Source: Turneriella sp. (lineage in GTDB: Bacteria > Spirochaetota > Leptospiria > Turneriellales > Turneriellaceae). Taken from it: a DNA stretch of 40,532 nucleotides. The translations under genes and the position numbers were made by a program. The notes beneath the pieces were generated by a model. It was not told the origin of the DNA and made no database searches. It saw only the letters and a list, made by a program, of their open reading frames with translations. Every line of letters begins with the position of its first letter. The first letter of the stretch is position 1. Of the stretch, positions 30,244 to 39,027 are shown in pieces. The stretch spans positions 1 through 40,532 of the forward strand of contig JABARV010000012.1 of the NCBI GenBank assembly GCA_019186965.1, given 5' to 3'.

Positions 30244-30315
30244 AACGTTATTTTAGTAGATTCTGCGTTCTCTGTGGGTTAAATCCGTTTTTTGTCGTAA
30301 AATACGAATCCATTC

Positions 30316-30347
30316 CCGTCTAATAGGGCAACTATTTTATTAGACGG
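30316..30347. promoter_or_regulatory. Inverted repeat before the outer-membrane protein gene
   Basis: CCGTCTAATA (30316-30325) and TATTAGACGG (30338-30347) form a perfect 10-bp inverted repeat around 12 bases, 20 bp before the GTG start of the next gene. No T-run follows, so an operator or a 5'-leader hairpin is more likely than a terminator. The remaining part of 30244-30366 is AT-rich without a clear promoter. Confidence 0.5.
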
Positions 30348-30366
30348 TAATGGTTATTGAGGTAAC

Positions 30367-31086
30367 GTGCGACAAAAAAAAATATATGCGCTTTTTGTCT
30401 TAACTACACTTTTAAGTATATTGCCCCTTTGGGCGGCGCCAGCTAAAGCTAAAACAGCAAAACAAAAAGCGGTGGCAGACCCTGCCACAAAAGATATGGT
30501 GTTGCCCGAGGAAAATACGGGCAACTATGGTCGGCCGTGGAAGCGGAGCGTTCTCGATTTGCGCGTGGGACTTTTAGGTGGGCCAACTATTCCTGTAGGG
30601 CAGGCGTCGAAAGTTCTCGAAGTGGGTTGGGGTGGGCGTCTATGGGCGTCGGCGGAAACAAGTTTTATCAAGCTTCCCAAATCTAAAATTTTTGAAAATA
30701 CTCTCCTTATTTACGAGTTTAGTTTTTATAAAGTAAAGGGCACGTCGGTGTCGAGTAAAATGGGACAAGACACCGACGCCGATTATGTCACTAACGCAGG
30801 TGCTATCGGGAAAGCATACGACGTACAATTTTCTCCAAAATTTATAATGCGTTTTATTCCTTATTTTGGGGTGGGGCTTACCAATATCACTTCGGATACA
30901 AAAACCCCGACGGGAAACATCCACGCGGTTTCTGGAGACATAATCATGAAGTATGGCGTCGCTACAGCGTACGATTTTAACCAACGGTGGCAGGCGTTAC
31001 TTACGGTGGACCATTACATTTACTTTGAAGAAAAAGTCGGTATGTCTCTTCGGATTAACCTCGGTGTGACGATGATGATTTTTTGA
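30367..31086 (+). CDS. Probable outer-membrane beta-barrel protein
   Basis: 239-aa exported protein. A signal peptide (KKIYALFVLTTLLSILPLWA, likely cut after WA at about 23) leads to an Ala/Lys-rich linker, then alternating-hydrophobic strands ending in a C-terminal Phe (LRINLGVTMMIF), the pattern of an eight-stranded barrel such as OmpA- or OmpW-like proteins. GTG start with GAGGT at 30359-30363. It directly precedes two giant lipoprotein genes, with 58 bp before the first, and could be co-expressed with them. Confidence 0.7.
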   Translation: MRQKKIYALFVLTTLLSILPLWAAPAKAKTAKQKAVADPATKDMVLPEENTGNYGRPWKRSVLDLRVGLLGGPTIPVGQASKVLEVGWGGRLWASAETSFIKLPKSKIFENTLLIYEFSFYKVKGTSVSSKMGQDTDADYVTNAGAIGKAYDVQFSPKFIMRFIPYFGVGLTNITSDTKTPTGNIHAVSGDIIMKYGVATAYDFNQRWQALLTVDHYIYFEEKVGMSLRINLGVTMMIF

Positions 31087-31144
31087 TATAAAGTTGTCGT
31101 AATCGCATTGAGTGTACCGTCAAAAAGGACGAAGGGAGAAAGAT

Positions 31145-34100
31145 ATGAAACGACTACGTATCGTAGGATTTATTTTCATGACAACGTTGCTTTTGGCAGC
31201 GTGCGGGCGTGTCACCGACACTAGTGAAAAAGAAATTACCGTCGCCAATAGTGGAGTGAGCATCGATTCGGCAGCCGCACAAGAAACAGCGGCGGCGCCG
31301 GTGTACGTCTCGCACACCGTCGTCAGCAATAACACCATCGAAGTTACTTTATCGAAAGAATGCACCGACGCCACGGTCACGAACACCGCCAACTACATCG
31401 TCAACGGCGGCTTACAAGTGCAGTCGGTGACAAAAGATGCCACCGATAAAGCAAAACTTATCTTGACGACAACCACGCAGCAAGCGCAAGCGTACACGCT
31501 CACAATTTTAAATTTAACAAGTCTTGCTGGCACTCCCATAACCGGTGTAATCCAAATCCCTTTCACCGGTTTATCTCTGCCTGCTGCGACGTTCACTTGG
31601 CGTAATCCCGTGGACCAGTCGGCGCTGCCCATAACGATTGGTAGCTGGACTTTATGCGACCCCAACGTTTCTTCAAGCGCGTGTACTGTGCAACCGTACT
31701 ACAATAAAAATGCGGTAGATATTCTTGTTAGCGGCACCGACGTTGCTGCATACCGCTATAAACTCGACGCGGGTAGCTGGGGCTCAGAGATTCCCGTTGC
31801 CACACCTCTGACACTTTCGGGGTTAAGTGAAGGCTACCATACTCTCTATATTGTTGTGAAACACACTTTAGGGTATTGGCAAGAAACGACCTCGCCCGAT
31901 GTAAAAATATTCTCTTGGGTACAAGACACTCTTCCCGCTGCCGATGCGGCGTTTGATACAGTGACGCTACCGACAACCAACGGTGGGACAACCGCGTCGC
32001 AAAGTGTGAACATTCGGGTCATCGGTTCTGAAATTGCGCGGTATCAAATTTGTCTCGATAACGGCGCGTACAACGATTGTACGACGAGCACTTTCAAAGG
32101 TACAACACCCACGTCGGTGAACACGAACATATCGATTCCCAATGCCGACTATACCGCGATACTCACGCCAGGTAGCGCAACGTTCAAAGTTATTGGCTAC
32201 GATGCAAGCGGCAACGCGCAAGCTACCCCCGTGGCTGCCGGCACTTTTAGTTATACTATCGACACCCAAAACGTTGAAGCCGTTTTTAAGGTTTCTGATT
32301 TACCCAGTTCGATCAACAACGGCACCACGTCGGCCACCGTGAACGTGTTGAGCACTTACGGTGCGGTCACTTACATCGGTGCAATAATCGACGGTACTGA
32401 TTGCGGTACAATCGATTGGGTGACGCTCGCAGCGTCGCCAGTGCCGGTTGCAACACCGATTACGCGCAGCGGCATGACGGATACAGTCCCACAAAAAACG
32501 ATTTGCGCCGTAGGGCGTAGTATCGGTGGTTTGTGGCAAGGCTCATGGAATGGCACGGGGACGCCGCCCAATATCACAAAATATACTTGGCTTATCGACA
32601 CCACTGCACCTTCAGTGACTATTTACTGGCAAAACCCCATCACCGCACCCACATCGACAACCCAAACGAGCGGCTATAAATTCCAAGTGTCATCAAGTGG
32701 CGGCGCGTCGCACTATCGTTATGCAGTGGTGACCGGTGCAGGTACGCCGTGTTCATCGGGTACGTATAGCGGAGACATCACGATTGAAAACGATATCAGC
32801 GTCGACCCGCCGACAATTTTGACAACCGGTACAACCGTCTATAAAGTGTGCGTGGTCGCGGGTGACTTAGCGGGTAACTGGCAGTCGACGAGCGCGGCGA
32901 GCCAAACCGCAGAGTGGACGGTTGACTTGGAAGCGCCGACGGCAAATCCGTCGTTTGCCGCCGCCTCGAGTAGCGCACGCAGTTTTAACACGGCCGCGCT
33001 GACGTTTAGCATCGATAATACAACCGCTACGTCAGATACGTTTTATTACGAAGTGCAGGTGGCCACTGACGCTGCCTTTACGAATATCGTTGCAGATACA
33101 ACGGTAAAAAGCTGTAAAGCGGTTTCACTACCCGAATGCCCATCGGCGTTGGCAACGAAAGACTTTGCCGTTGCTGTCGACGCATTCCAGTCGCCCAGTT
33201 ATTACGCACGCGTCAAAGCGGGCGATAGTTTGGGCAACATGCACAGCGGCTTTTCGGCAGCGTCGGCAGAACATTTTGTGGTCGGCAAAATTGTAGGTGT
33301 CATCAAAAACGAGTTAAACGCCAACGTTAGCGGTGTTGCGGTCAAGCTCCTCACGAACGCGGGGAGCGATGTCACAGCGCTTTACGGCGGCACTATTACA
33401 ACCGATGCCAGCGGAGCTTTCACAATCGACAACGTACGCACGGCCAAGTTAGGCTACCAAATCCGTGTGGCCGAAGGCGATGCAACGTACTACCCCGCGA
33501 CAAAACGAAACATCACTGTTCAAGAAAAAGGTACGGCCGGTTCGCTGCAAACAAACATTGGTACATTGGGTGTCGCCACGAAAGCCGGTGCATCAACGCA
33601 GACGATAACGGCAAAAGTGATCGACGCCGACGACGGGTGGATGCTCGGCTACGCCGAGGTCAAACTCATCGACTATTTGGGGGCAACCGTAGCCACCGCC
33701 CGTTCGCTTACCACCGCTGCCGACTGCACGAATATACCACCGGTGGGCTCACCGCCGACAAACATACCTAAGGCTAAATTTGACTCAGGAGCAACCTGTG
33801 GTGATGTCTCTTTTGCTAACGTTGCGCCGGGGACATACACTATTCAAGTCAACGGTGACAGTTGGGGAACGAGTAACCAGCGCTACAACCAGCTCAACGT
33901 TGAGGGACTTGTAGTACACAGCAGCACAGTCGCCAAAGGGCGTATACCCATGGTACGCCTTTTGACCGGCCAAGATCTAAAAATTGTTCTTTCGTGGGGC
34001 GCGGCCAATCCTATTGACCCCGATATACATCTTGTGGGCACGGTGCCCGCAGGGCAAAGCGTTACCAACGTGAATGGGGACAACTGCAACACCGATCACT

Positions 34101-34693
34101 TCCACGTTTGGGCGGCGCGCCCTAACGTTGGTTTAACCTGGCAGCAACAGTATTCGGCAAAAACCCGCACATACATCCAAGGGGACGCATCGTATAATGG
34201 GGCCAACTATTTTCCCGTAAGTTCATCGACGACAGTTGCGCTCGTTCAAGACGCCAATACAGGCTATGGGCCAGAAGCCATCAATATGCTTTCGGGGTAC
34301 ACCGACGGCACGTACTGGGTGACGGTGATTAACTGGTCTCAGTGGTATCATAGTCATCCCGGATATGCGACTACCAAAGCTGCACAACGTTGGGATGTGA
34401 CACAAGTTAGCATAAAAGTTTACGACAAAGATGGCTTGGCTTTTGAGATTATTGCTGCAGAGCCAGCAACGACCCCAACGGCATTGGCACCAGCAACGGC
34501 GGTTGCAGGGTGCGGTTTAGGCGGTGCCAGCGATTGGACTGAGTGCGAACTGTGGCAGGCGTTCAAAATTACCGTTGCGGGAGGTGGGGCGGCAGGGAGG
34601 AAATTTACCCCCGTCAACACCTACCAAAATTGGCAAGATGTATCGGGTGCCAGTGTGTACGATATGAATAAATGTTATCTCAAGACATTCTGA
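31145..34693 (+). CDS. Giant surface lipoprotein with Ig-like repeats and DUF2135-like module
   Basis: 1182-aa predicted lipoprotein: signal with lipobox LAAC (Cys20). Regions by eye: a Big_5-like Ig domain (51-143, TIEVTLSKECTDATVTNTANY); four tandem repeats of about 110 aa (145-600) each ending near W/Y-x-x-D-T-x-x-P and carrying G(N/L/Y)WQ motifs; a fibronectin-like domain (601-713); two carboxypeptidase-regulatory-like modules (714-815 and 818-940); and a DUF2135-like module (944-1105) with LSWGAANPIDPDIHLVG and GYGPEAINMLSGYTDGTYWVTV. GGGAG supports ATG 31145 over the in-frame start at 31112. Function unknown; surface exposure is likely. Codon and G+C usage differ from flanking genes. 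Confidence 0.8.
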   Translation: MKRLRIVGFIFMTTLLLAACGRVTDTSEKEITVANSGVSIDSAAAQETAAAPVYVSHTVVSNNTIEVTLSKECTDATVTNTANYIVNGGLQVQSVTKDATDKAKLILTTTTQQAQAYTLTILNLTSLAGTPITGVIQIPFTGLSLPAATFTWRNPVDQSALPITIGSWTLCDPNVSSSACTVQPYYNKNAVDILVSGTDVAAYRYKLDAGSWGSEIPVATPLTLSGLSEGYHTLYIVVKHTLGYWQETTSPDVKIFSWVQDTLPAADAAFDTVTLPTTNGGTTASQSVNIRVIGSEIARYQICLDNGAYNDCTTSTFKGTTPTSVNTNISIPNADYTAILTPGSATFKVIGYDASGNAQATPVAAGTFSYTIDTQNVEAVFKVSDLPSSINNGTTSATVNVLSTYGAVTYIGAIIDGTDCGTIDWVTLAASPVPVATPITRSGMTDTVPQKTICAVGRSIGGLWQGSWNGTGTPPNITKYTWLIDTTAPSVTIYWQNPITAPTSTTQTSGYKFQVSSSGGASHYRYAVVTGAGTPCSSGTYSGDITIENDISVDPPTILTTGTTVYKVCVVAGDLAGNWQSTSAASQTAEWTVDLEAPTANPSFAAASSSARSFNTAALTFSIDNTTATSDTFYYEVQVATDAAFTNIVADTTVKSCKAVSLPECPSALATKDFAVAVDAFQSPSYYARVKAGDSLGNMHSGFSAASAEHFVVGKIVGVIKNELNANVSGVAVKLLTNAGSDVTALYGGTITTDASGAFTIDNVRTAKLGYQIRVAEGDATYYPATKRNITVQEKGTAGSLQTNIGTLGVATKAGASTQTITAKVIDADDGWMLGYAEVKLIDYLGATVATARSLTTAADCTNIPPVGSPPTNIPKAKFDSGATCGDVSFANVAPGTYTIQVNGDSWGTSNQRYNQLNVEGLVVHSSTVAKGRIPMVRLLTGQDLKIVLSWGAANPIDPDIHLVGTVPAGQSVTNVNGDNCNTDHFHVWAARPNVGLTWQQQYSAKTRTYIQGDASYNGANYFPVSSSTTVALVQDANTGYGPEAINMLSGYTDGTYWVTVINWSQWYHSHPGYATTKAAQRWDVTQVSIKVYDKDGLAFEIIAAEPATTPTALAPATAVAGCGLGGASDWTECELWQAFKITVAGGGAAGRKFTPVNTYQNWQDVSGASVYDMNKCYLKTF

Positions 34694-34703
34694 GGGTAAA
34701 AAT

Positions 34704-37700
34704 ATGTGCCATAAAACATATCCACGGTTAGCTCTCTTTTTAACCACGCTTACGCTGCTATGGACTACTCCGGCTTGCGTCGGCAAATTTTTATCGACAA
34801 TGCTCTCTGAAGAAGGGGCTAATTTTCGGATCATTGAAGCCAGCGCGGTGGCTAACACCCGTATTCGGGTTTCGTTTAACCGCCCGCTCGACAAAACGCA
34901 AGGGGCGAGCACGGTGTTGAGTAATTACAGCATCCCGGGTTTAACGTTGATGTCGGTGGAAGCGGGCTCTGAATCCAACCAAGTTTTTTTGAATTTGGAT
35001 CCCAGCGAAACCTCAGCTAACAACCGTATGCAGCATAAATCGTACACTCTCACTGTCTCGAATGTACTCAACCAAACATTAGACCCACTTTTGCCCGAGG
35101 GACGCTCGATGACTTTTATGGGCGCACGCTGGCTGCGGGCTGTATGCCAAAACGACGACGGCACTTCGTCGTGTCCGCCTTTGGCGGCAACGGGCGGTAC
35201 ACAAGGGTATGAAATTAAAGTACGCGGCGACTATGCGGTGGGTGTCAACTACCGCTGGCGGTTGGTTGATCCTTCCACCAGTACCCCTAAACCGGCTTGC
35301 GAAAACCCAATGCACACCAATTATGCAACGTGTAACGATGGTGCCTTGCCTGCATACGACAACGGGTTGGGTAACGGCACGACAACACTGGATTGGAATG
35401 TAACCCCTATTCCTGTAAGCACCCCCATCCGGATCAGCGGTCTTGCCACGGGCAATTACCGTTTAGAACTCATGATCCAAGACGCGGAGGGCGCATGGCA
35501 GCCGACAAGTGAACAGACGGTGTACGATTTTTTTGTCGATGGAACTTCGCCGGAAAGAATTGGCTTAAGTAATGCCGGAGGGCCTTCGTCAGTGCCTGCG
35601 TATACTACTCTTACTAACGTGCAAATTACTAATATCGGGATACGTCCCCGAAGCTGCACCGAATTCCCCAACCCGGCACCCGATTGTTCAGCGTCGCCTG
35701 AGGCGCCGTCGCACTATAAATACCAAATTCTCTATAAAGCAGGTAGCTGCCCGAGCGCATCACCCACAGAGATTGTGCCTTGGACGAGTGAAGTTTCGGC
35801 AAACATCCCCATCACCTACGACATGAGCGCCAACGGTGAAGGTTGCTATACCATCCGTGTTCTCGCACGCGACATTGCAGGCAACTGGCAATGCGACACC
35901 AGTGGCGGCGATGCTGCGCCGAGCAAATGCCAACACGGCCTGGGTACGGGTAGTATCAATGACTTCTTTAATAACCGTGCGTATCAGGTGGCGCATATCC
36001 ATTTTGACCAGACTGCGCCCACCGCAAGTTTTATGAGCGGCACCACCCCCAATAACCCAACGGCATCGACGACGTTGACGATTGGGGTTACCGCCGCGGC
36101 GGATGTACCCTATTTTCGCTACCGTATCACAGGGCCAGGCCAAGCAGGTGTTTGGACTGGTGATAAAGTTTCCGGTGCCGGTGGGGTGGCAAACCCTTAT
36201 ATCGCGGGTAATCCTCCGGGGGAATATATCTCTGCCTCTGGCCTCACCGATGGTGGCACATACACGGTGGATATTATCGGTAAAGACGCTGCAGGAAATT
36301 ACCAATCCACCTCATCGCCGACTTCTTATACATTTACTGTTGATACGACTGTGCCGACGGCGACGCTCACCGCGTACACCGGCGCAGGGGGGTGTGTCGG
36401 CCAACAGGGGTTGCCCAATAACCCGACGAACAACAACTGTGTTTCGGTAACGGTCGGCGGTCTTGGAGTAACGCATTACCGCGCTGCCATTGTAACAGGG
36501 ACAGCTTGCCCCACTGTAGATGGGGCTTATGCTGCAGCAGTAGATGTCAGTACAAATTATATTGATTTATCGCCTGGATTTGTCAACGGCACAACGTATA
36601 GTATTTGTGTACGCGGTGGTTCTTCCATAACAGGCCCCTTCGGTCTTGCACCGGGGGAAGTGACCCGCCATACGTTTACTTTCGATAACGCGCCGCCTAC
36701 CGGTACAGCGGTTACCCAGTTTTTAACCCCTGTCTATGCCACCGCGCCTGCCTCGGGCACCATGAAAACAGTTCTCAAAAATGCCGACGCCATTATTGGC
36801 AACACATCGGGTGAAGCGGTGCTTGCCTACAAAGGGGCTATTTACCAAACGAGCGATTGTTCGGTGACTCCGGGGCTTGCGGCGATTCAAGCGCTCACCG
36901 AGAAGTCGGTCTATACCCCCATCCAGAAAAATGGTATGGCAAATGCAGAGCAACGCGTTTGCTTTATTGGGCGCGATGCGGCTGGTAACTACCAAACTTC
37001 AGTGCAGCAGTACTCGTTCACCGTTTTTGATCCGGTAACGCCTTCCGACGGCGGTGGTGTCGACGATACAGCGTATGTATCGAATTTTAATTTTACTTGG
37101 GCGGGATTACCCAACAATGTCACAGAAATTCGTATTCGCATTTGCACCGATTCTGCCTGTGCGTCGCCCATCCCTGGATTTCAAAACGGCGTGGCACTGT
37201 GTTCGAGCGCGGCAACGTGCGTAGCAACGACGAGCTATAACGTTGTGAGTAACTGCACCGGCTTGGGTTGTATTAAGTCGTTGAACGGTTCGCGGTACTA
37301 TGCGCAGCTCAAAGTGGTCGACGCATCGGGGAATGCCAGCGAGTTTGGTTCAACCTCTGACGGCAAAGTGGTTACGGGCGGCGTTGCGGGAATTATACGC
37401 GATACTAATGGCAATGCGGTCAGTGGAGCCACAGTAACGCTTTACGACAACACCTGCGGCGGCGCCGCGTACGGAAGTGCAACGACAGCGGGTGCAGGTA
37501 CGTTTACCATCAACAACGCAACGCCTGCATACCCACCCATTGTACTGGCGACTAACGGCCACTGTCTTAAAGTGACCGCTTCGGGGGGACGGCAAGGCAC
37601 AAAACAATACATCCAAGTGGATCCAGCCATCGATACCAATGTGGGTAGCATCTACGTGGTCGATCCCACGGGTAAAGGGTGTATCGTCGGAGCGTTGGTC

Positions 37701-38948
37701 GATGGTTCCACAGGAAGCCAGTTGACGCTCTCGAACGCGACTTTTACCCTCAAAGATTGGAATGGCACAGTTATTTCGGGAGCGCCCGCACTCGATCCCG
37801 ATGGGAAACAATTTATTTTTCCTGCAAGTTGTGTAGTTGCATGGGGGAATGCACCGTACAATAATCCAGGGACAAGTGCCCCGCCGATAAACTCGCCACA
37901 GATCGATTATGGCAATGGCTTGCCCTCAGGTGTGTACTCGCTTACCGCTTCAGTGCCGTCGTATTATCCTTTCACTGAGCCTTCGATTGGTGTCACGAAT
38001 AACACGGTTGTGCATACCGGTTATTTGCCGATGGTGGCTGCTTTCAAAGATAAAGCAGTCGATTTATCCGACGCCAAGAAAATAAAAATAATTTTGACGT
38101 GGGGCACCGGTGCAAAAGATTTAGATTTGCATTTGGTCGGTCCGTCTAACACAGGCTACGATTGCCAAGCGTACAATGCCCCCGCGATTGAAAATACAGC
38201 GAGCAGTAAATTCCATATCTATTTTCAACAAAAGTATTGCGCGAACATTGGTACATCTGCCCCTTATGGTTCGGCAAACATGGCCGTCGACGACACGTAT
38301 GAATATGGCCCTGAGATTATCAATTTGAACGACGGCTATGCAGACGGTGCGTATAAAGTCTCTGTGTTTAACAACGACACCACCGCACCGAATTGGACGA
38401 ACTCGAAAGCGCGCATTTATATTTTTGCGGGAAACTATTTTTCTGGTGGCGGTGGCTTAATCAAAATGATAGATTTACACACGTCGAGCACGGATCGTCT
38501 GTGGCGGCCATTTAAGTTTTCTATATCGGGGACAACGCTCACTATCGACGATAACGCCGGATCGACCTTTGGTTATACCGCCGCAACGTATGCACAGATG
38601 GTGGGCTCGTCAAATGGTTTAGGCGGCATCACCGACCTCGTCTTGTCGGCGGGTGGTTCTGGGTACACCGTTGCACCGACGGTTACTCTCTCTGGCCCGG
38701 CAGGGGCGGGAACAACTGCGACGGCAACGGCAAGCATTACGGGTGATGTGGTGACAGGCCTTACTATCACCAGCAATGGCACGGGTTACACCTCGACACA
38801 GAACGTGACCGTCACCTTTAGCGGCGGCGGTGGGGGTAGTGGTGCCGCTGCCTCGGCAGTCGTTTCTCTCTTTGATCCCAAAACAGACCCAGGACTTTTC
38901 ACCAATGGTACGACCGTTGCGGGCGGTGCGGGGTTAGCCGACTATTAG
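34704..38948 (+). CDS. Giant surface lipoprotein paralogue with GSGYT-type C-terminal repeats
   Basis: 1414-aa predicted lipoprotein, 10 bp after the first. The lipobox TPAC (Cys25) is permissive. Big_5-like domain about 41-140 (NTRIRVSFNRPLDKTQGAS); Ig-like repeats 160-880 with recurring GNWQ/GNYQ motifs (392-395, 531-534, 761-764); carboxypeptidase-regulatory-like modules 891-990 and 993-1115; DUF2135-like module 1126-1250 (LTWGTGAKDLDLHLVGP, YGPEIINLNDGYADGAYKVSV). Unlike its neighbour it ends in a Gly/Thr-rich tail (1309-1388) with two GSGYT/GTGYT repeats. Many cysteines in the repeats suggest disulfides. A GAGGG site overlaps the previous stop. Tandem duplication and divergence is inferred. 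Confidence 0.8.
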   Translation: MCHKTYPRLALFLTTLTLLWTTPACVGKFLSTMLSEEGANFRIIEASAVANTRIRVSFNRPLDKTQGASTVLSNYSIPGLTLMSVEAGSESNQVFLNLDPSETSANNRMQHKSYTLTVSNVLNQTLDPLLPEGRSMTFMGARWLRAVCQNDDGTSSCPPLAATGGTQGYEIKVRGDYAVGVNYRWRLVDPSTSTPKPACENPMHTNYATCNDGALPAYDNGLGNGTTTLDWNVTPIPVSTPIRISGLATGNYRLELMIQDAEGAWQPTSEQTVYDFFVDGTSPERIGLSNAGGPSSVPAYTTLTNVQITNIGIRPRSCTEFPNPAPDCSASPEAPSHYKYQILYKAGSCPSASPTEIVPWTSEVSANIPITYDMSANGEGCYTIRVLARDIAGNWQCDTSGGDAAPSKCQHGLGTGSINDFFNNRAYQVAHIHFDQTAPTASFMSGTTPNNPTASTTLTIGVTAAADVPYFRYRITGPGQAGVWTGDKVSGAGGVANPYIAGNPPGEYISASGLTDGGTYTVDIIGKDAAGNYQSTSSPTSYTFTVDTTVPTATLTAYTGAGGCVGQQGLPNNPTNNNCVSVTVGGLGVTHYRAAIVTGTACPTVDGAYAAAVDVSTNYIDLSPGFVNGTTYSICVRGGSSITGPFGLAPGEVTRHTFTFDNAPPTGTAVTQFLTPVYATAPASGTMKTVLKNADAIIGNTSGEAVLAYKGAIYQTSDCSVTPGLAAIQALTEKSVYTPIQKNGMANAEQRVCFIGRDAAGNYQTSVQQYSFTVFDPVTPSDGGGVDDTAYVSNFNFTWAGLPNNVTEIRIRICTDSACASPIPGFQNGVALCSSAATCVATTSYNVVSNCTGLGCIKSLNGSRYYAQLKVVDASGNASEFGSTSDGKVVTGGVAGIIRDTNGNAVSGATVTLYDNTCGGAAYGSATTAGAGTFTINNATPAYPPIVLATNGHCLKVTASGGRQGTKQYIQVDPAIDTNVGSIYVVDPTGKGCIVGALVDGSTGSQLTLSNATFTLKDWNGTVISGAPALDPDGKQFIFPASCVVAWGNAPYNNPGTSAPPINSPQIDYGNGLPSGVYSLTASVPSYYPFTEPSIGVTNNTVVHTGYLPMVAAFKDKAVDLSDAKKIKIILTWGTGAKDLDLHLVGPSNTGYDCQAYNAPAIENTASSKFHIYFQQKYCANIGTSAPYGSANMAVDDTYEYGPEIINLNDGYADGAYKVSVFNNDTTAPNWTNSKARIYIFAGNYFSGGGGLIKMIDLHTSSTDRLWRPFKFSISGTTLTIDDNAGSTFGYTAATYAQMVGSSNGLGGITDLVLSAGGSGYTVAPTVTLSGPAGAGTTATATASITGDVVTGLTITSNGTGYTSTQNVTVTFSGGGGGSGAAASAVVSLFDPKTDPGLFTNGTTVAGGAGLADY

Positions 38949-38975: not shown

Positions 38976-39027
38976 AACAAACGTCCAATATAACGAATTT
39001 TATTGGACGTTATATTGAACATTTGTT
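38976..39027. promoter_or_regulatory. Competing hairpins between the lipoprotein and YeeE-like genes
   Basis: Two structures share sequence. Hairpin A: 38980-38990 pairs exactly with 39001-39011 (AACGTCCAATA and its complement, 10-base loop). Hairpin B: 38976-38995 pairs with 39008-39027 at 18 of 20 positions; the two differences would be G-U pairs in minus-strand RNA. Both cannot form at once. It could be a bidirectional terminator or an attenuation-like leader of the downstream transporter; no strong T-run follows on the plus strand. Confidence 0.6.

Follow-up and report, generated by a model that had tools for sequence, protein, structure and literature searches.

A small barrel gene linked to two giant paralogous lipoprotein genes in Turneriella: a candidate outer-membrane partnership

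How lipoproteins reach the surface of spirochaetes and remain there is a question on which a locus of Turneriella sp. bears. The window analysed here, a whole stretch of 40,532 nucleotides, contains three co-directional, closely packed genes at 30367-38948, the first for a candidate beta-barrel and the others for two large lipoproteins. The barrel gene (30367..31086, forward strand as are all protein features given below; 239 aa, GTG start) encodes a signal peptide, a Lys/Ala/Pro-rich linker, approximately eight beta strands, and a C-terminal Phe. It is followed after 58 nt by the gene for lipoprotein A (31145..34693; 1182 aa, ATG start, lipid cysteine at residue 20), and after a further gap of 10 nt by that for lipoprotein B (34704..38948; 1414 aa, with the lipid cysteine at residue 25 and CVGKFLST as the first residues of the mature protein). 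A purine-rich ribosome site precedes each of the three starts, and the three genes form an operon. The gene order, a barrel candidate and then lipoproteins of 1182 and 1414 aa, is that given in the preliminary description, whose coordinates and gene calls were confirmed.

The cassette is flanked upstream by genes for an aminotransferase and an MgtC-type protein and downstream by two Sulf_transp (YeeE-type) halves. Strong hairpins were found on both sides, at 30310..30353 (fold z-score -4.2) and at 38976..39027 (fold z-score -4.4), the latter being a likely transcript end. The two hairpins have common CGTCYAATA stems, an arrangement that occurs nowhere else in the genome. Mobile-element ends were considered and rejected; since the relatives have unrelated strong hairpins in similar places, transcript ends are the more likely explanation. 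Rfam and tRNA scans of the window gave no matches, and scans for promoter and terminator consensus sequences gave none above shuffled sequences.

The barrel protein had no match in Pfam, NCBIfam, or PHROGs, and its AlphaFold model was of low confidence (pLDDT 50, pTM 0.45). When this model was searched with Foldseek, all 15 matches with E <= 0.001 were outer-membrane barrels, nearly all of them small, and the leading solved structures were NspA, OmpA, Ail, OmpX, and OprF. With so poor a model, this result may be trusted in its direction only. Beta-type amphipathicity was also higher than in shuffled sequences (11 of 1000 shuffles were as high). The earlier beta-barrel call agrees with the Foldseek matches and with the amphipathicity; the protein appears to have a small outer-membrane barrel-like fold of approximately eight strands, at low model confidence.

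Subsequently, the architecture of A and B was analysed. Lipoboxes were read from the sequence as LLAA before the cysteine in A and, in a loose form, TTPA before it in B, and the lipid cysteine of both is kept in every ortholog that includes the N-terminus. Common to A and B are a chain of Ig-like repeats, two CnaB/transthyretin-like modules, and a DUF2135-related module. With a profile built from relatives, approximately three to four Ig-like repeats reach significance in A (best E 4e-20; residues 186-587, and to 604 with one more, weak match; 31700..32956) and five in B (best E 1e-13; residues 234-767, 35403..37004), and the profile also detects approximately 8 to 12 in distant relatives of like architecture. 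The repeats of the relatives pass the NCBIfam model NF047446 (OmpL47-type; 40.8 and 57 bits) and Pfam Big_13. The copies in the window are too diverged to pass NF047446 (12.5 bits for B against a cut-off of 40) and fall below the Pfam cut-offs too, and no Big_2 match was found in A or B at E up to 1. By the profile of the relatives, the repeats in the window are of the OmpL47/Big_13 type.

The first regulatory-like (CnaB/transthyretin-like) module of A lies at 33284..33538 by CarboxypepD_reg and a structure model, and the second at 33605..33931 (ends approximate) by alignment and the structure model. In B the two modules span 37377..38030 (end approximate), the first from a CarboxypepD_reg match to residues 894-974 and the second by alignment to A. 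In the C-terminal part of A, CarboxypepD_reg scored 34.3 bits against a cut-off of 32.3. The model of the C-terminal 478 residues of A (mean pLDDT 75, pTM 0.79) matched Gram-positive pilins and adhesins in Foldseek and also one isolated CnaB2 domain (TM by target 0.73). These matches agree with the presence of two regulatory-like modules.

The DUF2135-like module occupies 33968..34585 in A, with D-P-D-I-H-L-V-G at 34016-34039 and G-Y-G-P-E at 34262-34276, and 38076..38534 in B, with D-L-D-L-H-L-V-G at 38118-38141 and Y-G-P-E at 38304-38315. Pfam DUF2135 (PF09906) has no match in the proteins of the window or elsewhere in this genome. In profile comparison by hhalign, the module was related to true DUF2135 (YfaP-like) sequences with probabilities of 97.2 and 97.7% over approximately 100-120 columns, with the D-x-D-x-[HW] and Y-G-P-E motifs aligned; the modules of A and B differ from these proteins in being missed by the Pfam model and in their context. 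Among 15 sequences of the module, 19 columns are invariant, including W-G, D-x-D-x-H, F-H, and G-P-E; the invariant residues comprise D254, D256, H258, G338, P339, and E340 in the numbering of the A fragment. Taken together, the Ig-like repeats, the two regulatory-like modules, and the DUF2135-like module with its motifs, all of which had been proposed for both proteins, were supported. The Big_5-like N-terminal domain proposed with them was weakly matched by Pfam in B (E 0.018, below the cut-off), and no Pfam match was obtained for it in A. Toward its C-terminus, B has in addition a Gly-rich repeat insert (38616..38870) that resembles repeats of phage virion proteins (phrog_460, phrog_701), and then a conserved tail (38871..38945; DPxxDxGLxxNGTTxAxGAG..); orthologs largely lack the insert.

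The barrel is present in six of the seven genomes of the genus that were searched and in none of 54 other genomes, and its orthologs within the genus are 69-76% identical. Linkage of the barrel gene to these lipoprotein genes in relatives, on which the preliminary description depended, was borne out: in all four genus members where the arrangement is readable, barrel, A, and B are adjacent and in the same order. Two of them have the order groEL-barrel-A-B (G004 and G005), and in G002 the end of the barrel gene, A, and B are adjacent on a single contig. The cassette is broken at contig ends in G001 and G006, the latter having extra copies of A and B. In the genome of the window, groEL lies apart from the cassette, on a different contig (L218, G000:C5:120000-132000) where no cassette follows it, and third-position G+C is 0.53-0.55 in A and B as against 0.33-0.47 in neighbouring genes. 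Both observations fit a cassette that would have moved in this genome, by relocation or by transfer within the genus.

In an unrooted tree built from the DUF2135-like module, the A and B proteins fall into two clades, which are jointly split from all other sequences with 99/99 support. Because of this separation, the simplest reading of the sequences is a single duplication before the genus split, in agreement with the duplication suggested earlier. The accompanying idea that divergent repeats point to variable binding targets fared less well. Past the signal peptide, identity among A orthologs is approximately even along the chain (0.35-0.69 per 50 residues), and among B orthologs only the Ig region is patchy (0.16-0.54). 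Variation is seen more clearly in whole repeat modules that A and B orthologs have inserted at fixed sites. The A proteins of G002, G004, and G005 have approximately 300 aa of repeats, each of approximately 45 aa, inserted before the DUF2135-like module (L068 9777-14354; L070 3030-7610; L071 4416-8996), and B orthologs have Gly-rich or T-N-G repeats inserted before the conserved tail. A Kelch-like identity of the A repeats, proposed by eye, was given no support by Pfam in the two copies tested.

Relatives in named genomes belong mostly to the Spirochaetota; a tblastn search of a plasmid collection with B gave no matches. In a survey of 393 genomes of the phylum, a C-terminal profile of the lipoproteins had full-length matches in nine further genomes outside the genus. 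In six of these (G053, G098, G110, G131, G147, and G184), a gene for a barrel-like protein of 208-301 aa directly follows the lipoprotein gene. These barrels are one family (G053/G147/G098 compared with G131/G184/G110 at 99.7%), and their profile has strong matches in eight genomes, namely those six, G193, where the contig breaks, and G158. In G158 the barrel gene follows that for a lipoprotein of 1851 aa made up of Big_12 and PKD domains, which has no match to the Ig profile and is without the shared C-terminus. This lipoprotein does share the start of the mature protein, CNGDVFNSYIDER, alongside CSGDVFHNYKKER, CSGDAFHQYEVNR, CTGNLFKKYLDSH, and CSGDAFNQYQKER of others; the mature start in G184 is divergent (CKAAITAYNDYR). 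From these starts we defined, after seeing the data, a motif directly following the lipid cysteine (C-x-G-D/N-x-F-x-x-Y). Lipoprotein A is without the motif and B has the loose variant CVGKFLST. A profile of the lipoprotein N-terminus matches in all eight second-barrel genomes, and in six its E-value is below 1e-30; the match in G184 covers only the Big_5-like part, that in G158 is weak (E 2.2e-5), and many other genomes match in the Big_5-like part alone. The other three of the nine genomes are G104, G172, and G167. Their lipoproteins have linker-like starts and end in a membrane helix, and the neighbour is a PrsW protease-cNMP protein instead of a second-family barrel. In G167 a barrel-like gene of 283 aa lies divergently upstream, and its product is not clearly related to either barrel family.

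Are the barrel of the window and the second family related? Their hhalign probability was 75-85, and one of 17 control barrel-like ORFs scored equally (83). Furthermore, the second-family profile did not match the cassette barrel of any genus member. Since a control ORF scored as well, homology is not claimed.

These findings may be explained by an outer-membrane partnership, in which the small barrel of approximately eight strands would sit in the outer membrane and, serving as a dock or support, would hold a lipoprotein by its lipid-proximal end. A and B would be lipid-anchored and would extend outward as Ig-like beads, then the two CnaB-like modules, and then the DUF2135-like module. The outer domains would be exchangeable and would do the contact work, probably by binding neighbouring cells, polymers, or surfaces. 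To this reading, a barrel docking the lipid-proximal ends of giant surface lipoproteins with exchangeable outer domains, we assign a probability of roughly 0.4. It is favoured by the adjacency of barrel, A, and B wherever readable in the genus, with the barrel in none of the 54 outside genomes, and by the Foldseek matches of the barrel to small outer-membrane barrels. It is favoured also by the distant relatives, which keep a small barrel and the lipid-proximal start while the outer parts change: the second barrel follows related lipoproteins in six genomes and, in G158, a lipoprotein that keeps the motif but not the shared C-terminus, every strong second-barrel genome matches the N-terminal profile, and the membrane-helix lipoproteins have no adjoining second-family barrel. 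The recurrence of the pairing of a barrel with a giant lipoprotein in distant spirochaetes suggests a dedicated partnership. In addition, the Ig-like repeats of the relatives pass the model of the OmpL47 type, and OmpL47 is surface exposed in Leptospira (PMC2698987). The reading is weakened by the equal score of the control ORF, which leaves the homology of the two barrel families unsupported, by the absence of the motif from A, its looseness in B, and its definition after the fact, and by the low confidence of the barrel model; moreover, gene adjacency is not physical contact. The gene order, the linkage, the common architecture, a single duplication and, at low model confidence, a barrel-like fold come from the computation itself. 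The physical complex, docking near the lipid, exposure at the surface, and an adhesive role are what we infer from these genes. A more specific proposal is that the small barrel docks giant modular surface lipoproteins by recognising a short segment next to the lipid cysteine (C-x-G-D/N-x-F-x-x-Y; CVGKFLS in B of Turneriella), and that lineages lacking the barrel use the C-terminal membrane helix as an anchor instead. We regard this proposal as rather doubtful.

The docking reading has to be weighed against an arrangement in which A and B, as Lig-like surface adhesins or fibres, arrive by a general route, and the barrel, an ordinary small outer-membrane protein of the OmpX/Ail type encoded in one operon with them, acts independently, for example as a second adhesin. 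This is a real possibility, if one at somewhat below even odds. In the sister family, the Lig proteins are surface lipoproteins with Ig chains, for which a review describes no barrel partner (PMC7821625); the adhesin Ail is among the Foldseek matches, and the two barrel families may have no common origin. With an independent barrel, however, the repeated linkage of small barrels in distant lineages, in one case to a lipoprotein with different outer domains, would be unexpected.

Two other explanations appear less probable. The lipoproteins may stay in the periplasm as a structural assembly or an envelope sensor, anchored to the outer membrane by the barrel. Sequence cannot tell localisation, and DUF2135 proteins such as YfaP of E. 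coli are not known as adhesins, which counts for this explanation. Many spirochaete lipoproteins are periplasmic, as stated for T. pallidum (PMC7521688). Long chains of Ig-like and CnaB-like beads are nevertheless typical of surface fibres and adhesins, and module insertion at fixed sites suits an exposed protein better; we consider a periplasmic assembly improbable. That the barrel is a Slam-like translocon exporting the lipoproteins to the surface seems very improbable. As in Slam systems, also called type XI secretion, an outer-membrane barrel gene adjoins a surface lipoprotein gene, and Slam genes likewise adjoin those of their lipoprotein cargo (PMC5449769). Slam, however, consists of a TPR domain and a 14-stranded DUF560 barrel, whereas the 239-aa barrel of the window matched neither DUF560 nor TPR in Pfam and has approximately eight strands. 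A barrel of this size would probably have too narrow a lumen to serve as an export pore for such large lipoproteins.

Among known systems, A and B resemble LigA, LigB, and LigC in being large spirochaete lipoproteins with tandem Ig-like domains and paralogous copies (PMC7821625) and, as read from the sequence, in their lipobox cysteine; LigB and LigC also have Big_5 domains (PMC7821625). They differ from the Lig proteins, whose domains are Big_2, in having no Big_2, in their CnaB-like and DUF2135-like modules, and in the linked barrel gene. The likeness to OmpL47-type repeat proteins holds through the relatives, the copies in the window being far below the NF047446 cut-off, and OmpL47 itself, unlike A and B, is a 39-kDa non-lipoprotein. 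The proposed pairing of a lipoprotein with a barrel of approximately eight strands would have a counterpart in RcsF-OmpA of E. coli, although RcsF is small and a stress sensor. RcsF is a surface-exposed lipoprotein complexed with an outer-membrane protein whose membrane domain is an 8-stranded barrel (PMC7553776). Spirochaete lipoproteins with Ig beads (PMC7821625) and lipoprotein-barrel complexes (PMC7553776) are thus already known. The linked set of barrel, A, and B appears unstudied; no description of it was found in the non-subscription papers that we searched. A barrel gene kept beside giant lipoproteins despite their differing visible domains makes docking through a lipid-adjacent segment testable, and the cassette offers a defined gene set for this question in a genus that has a cultured free-living species.

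Several minor observations were made on the lipoproteins and their relatives. The C-termini of cassette-type lipoproteins are mostly aromatic (LDW, FDW, LNW, and MNW; TF, GF, or NW in A; DY in B of the window). At L086, L135, and L138, membrane-helix lipoproteins lie beside an intramembrane protease of the PrsW type that carries a fused cNMP-binding domain, possibly as a sorting pair. A lipoprotein of approximately 1200 aa rich in regulatory-like modules occurs in several genomes of the same class (L140, L141, L149, and L151); it weakly resembles the C-terminal part, and no barrel gene adjoins its gene. At the barrel-linked loci L076, L088, L136, and L137, a giant Big_5-repeat protein is encoded upstream and a barrel-like protein of approximately 500 aa downstream, forming a four-gene set.
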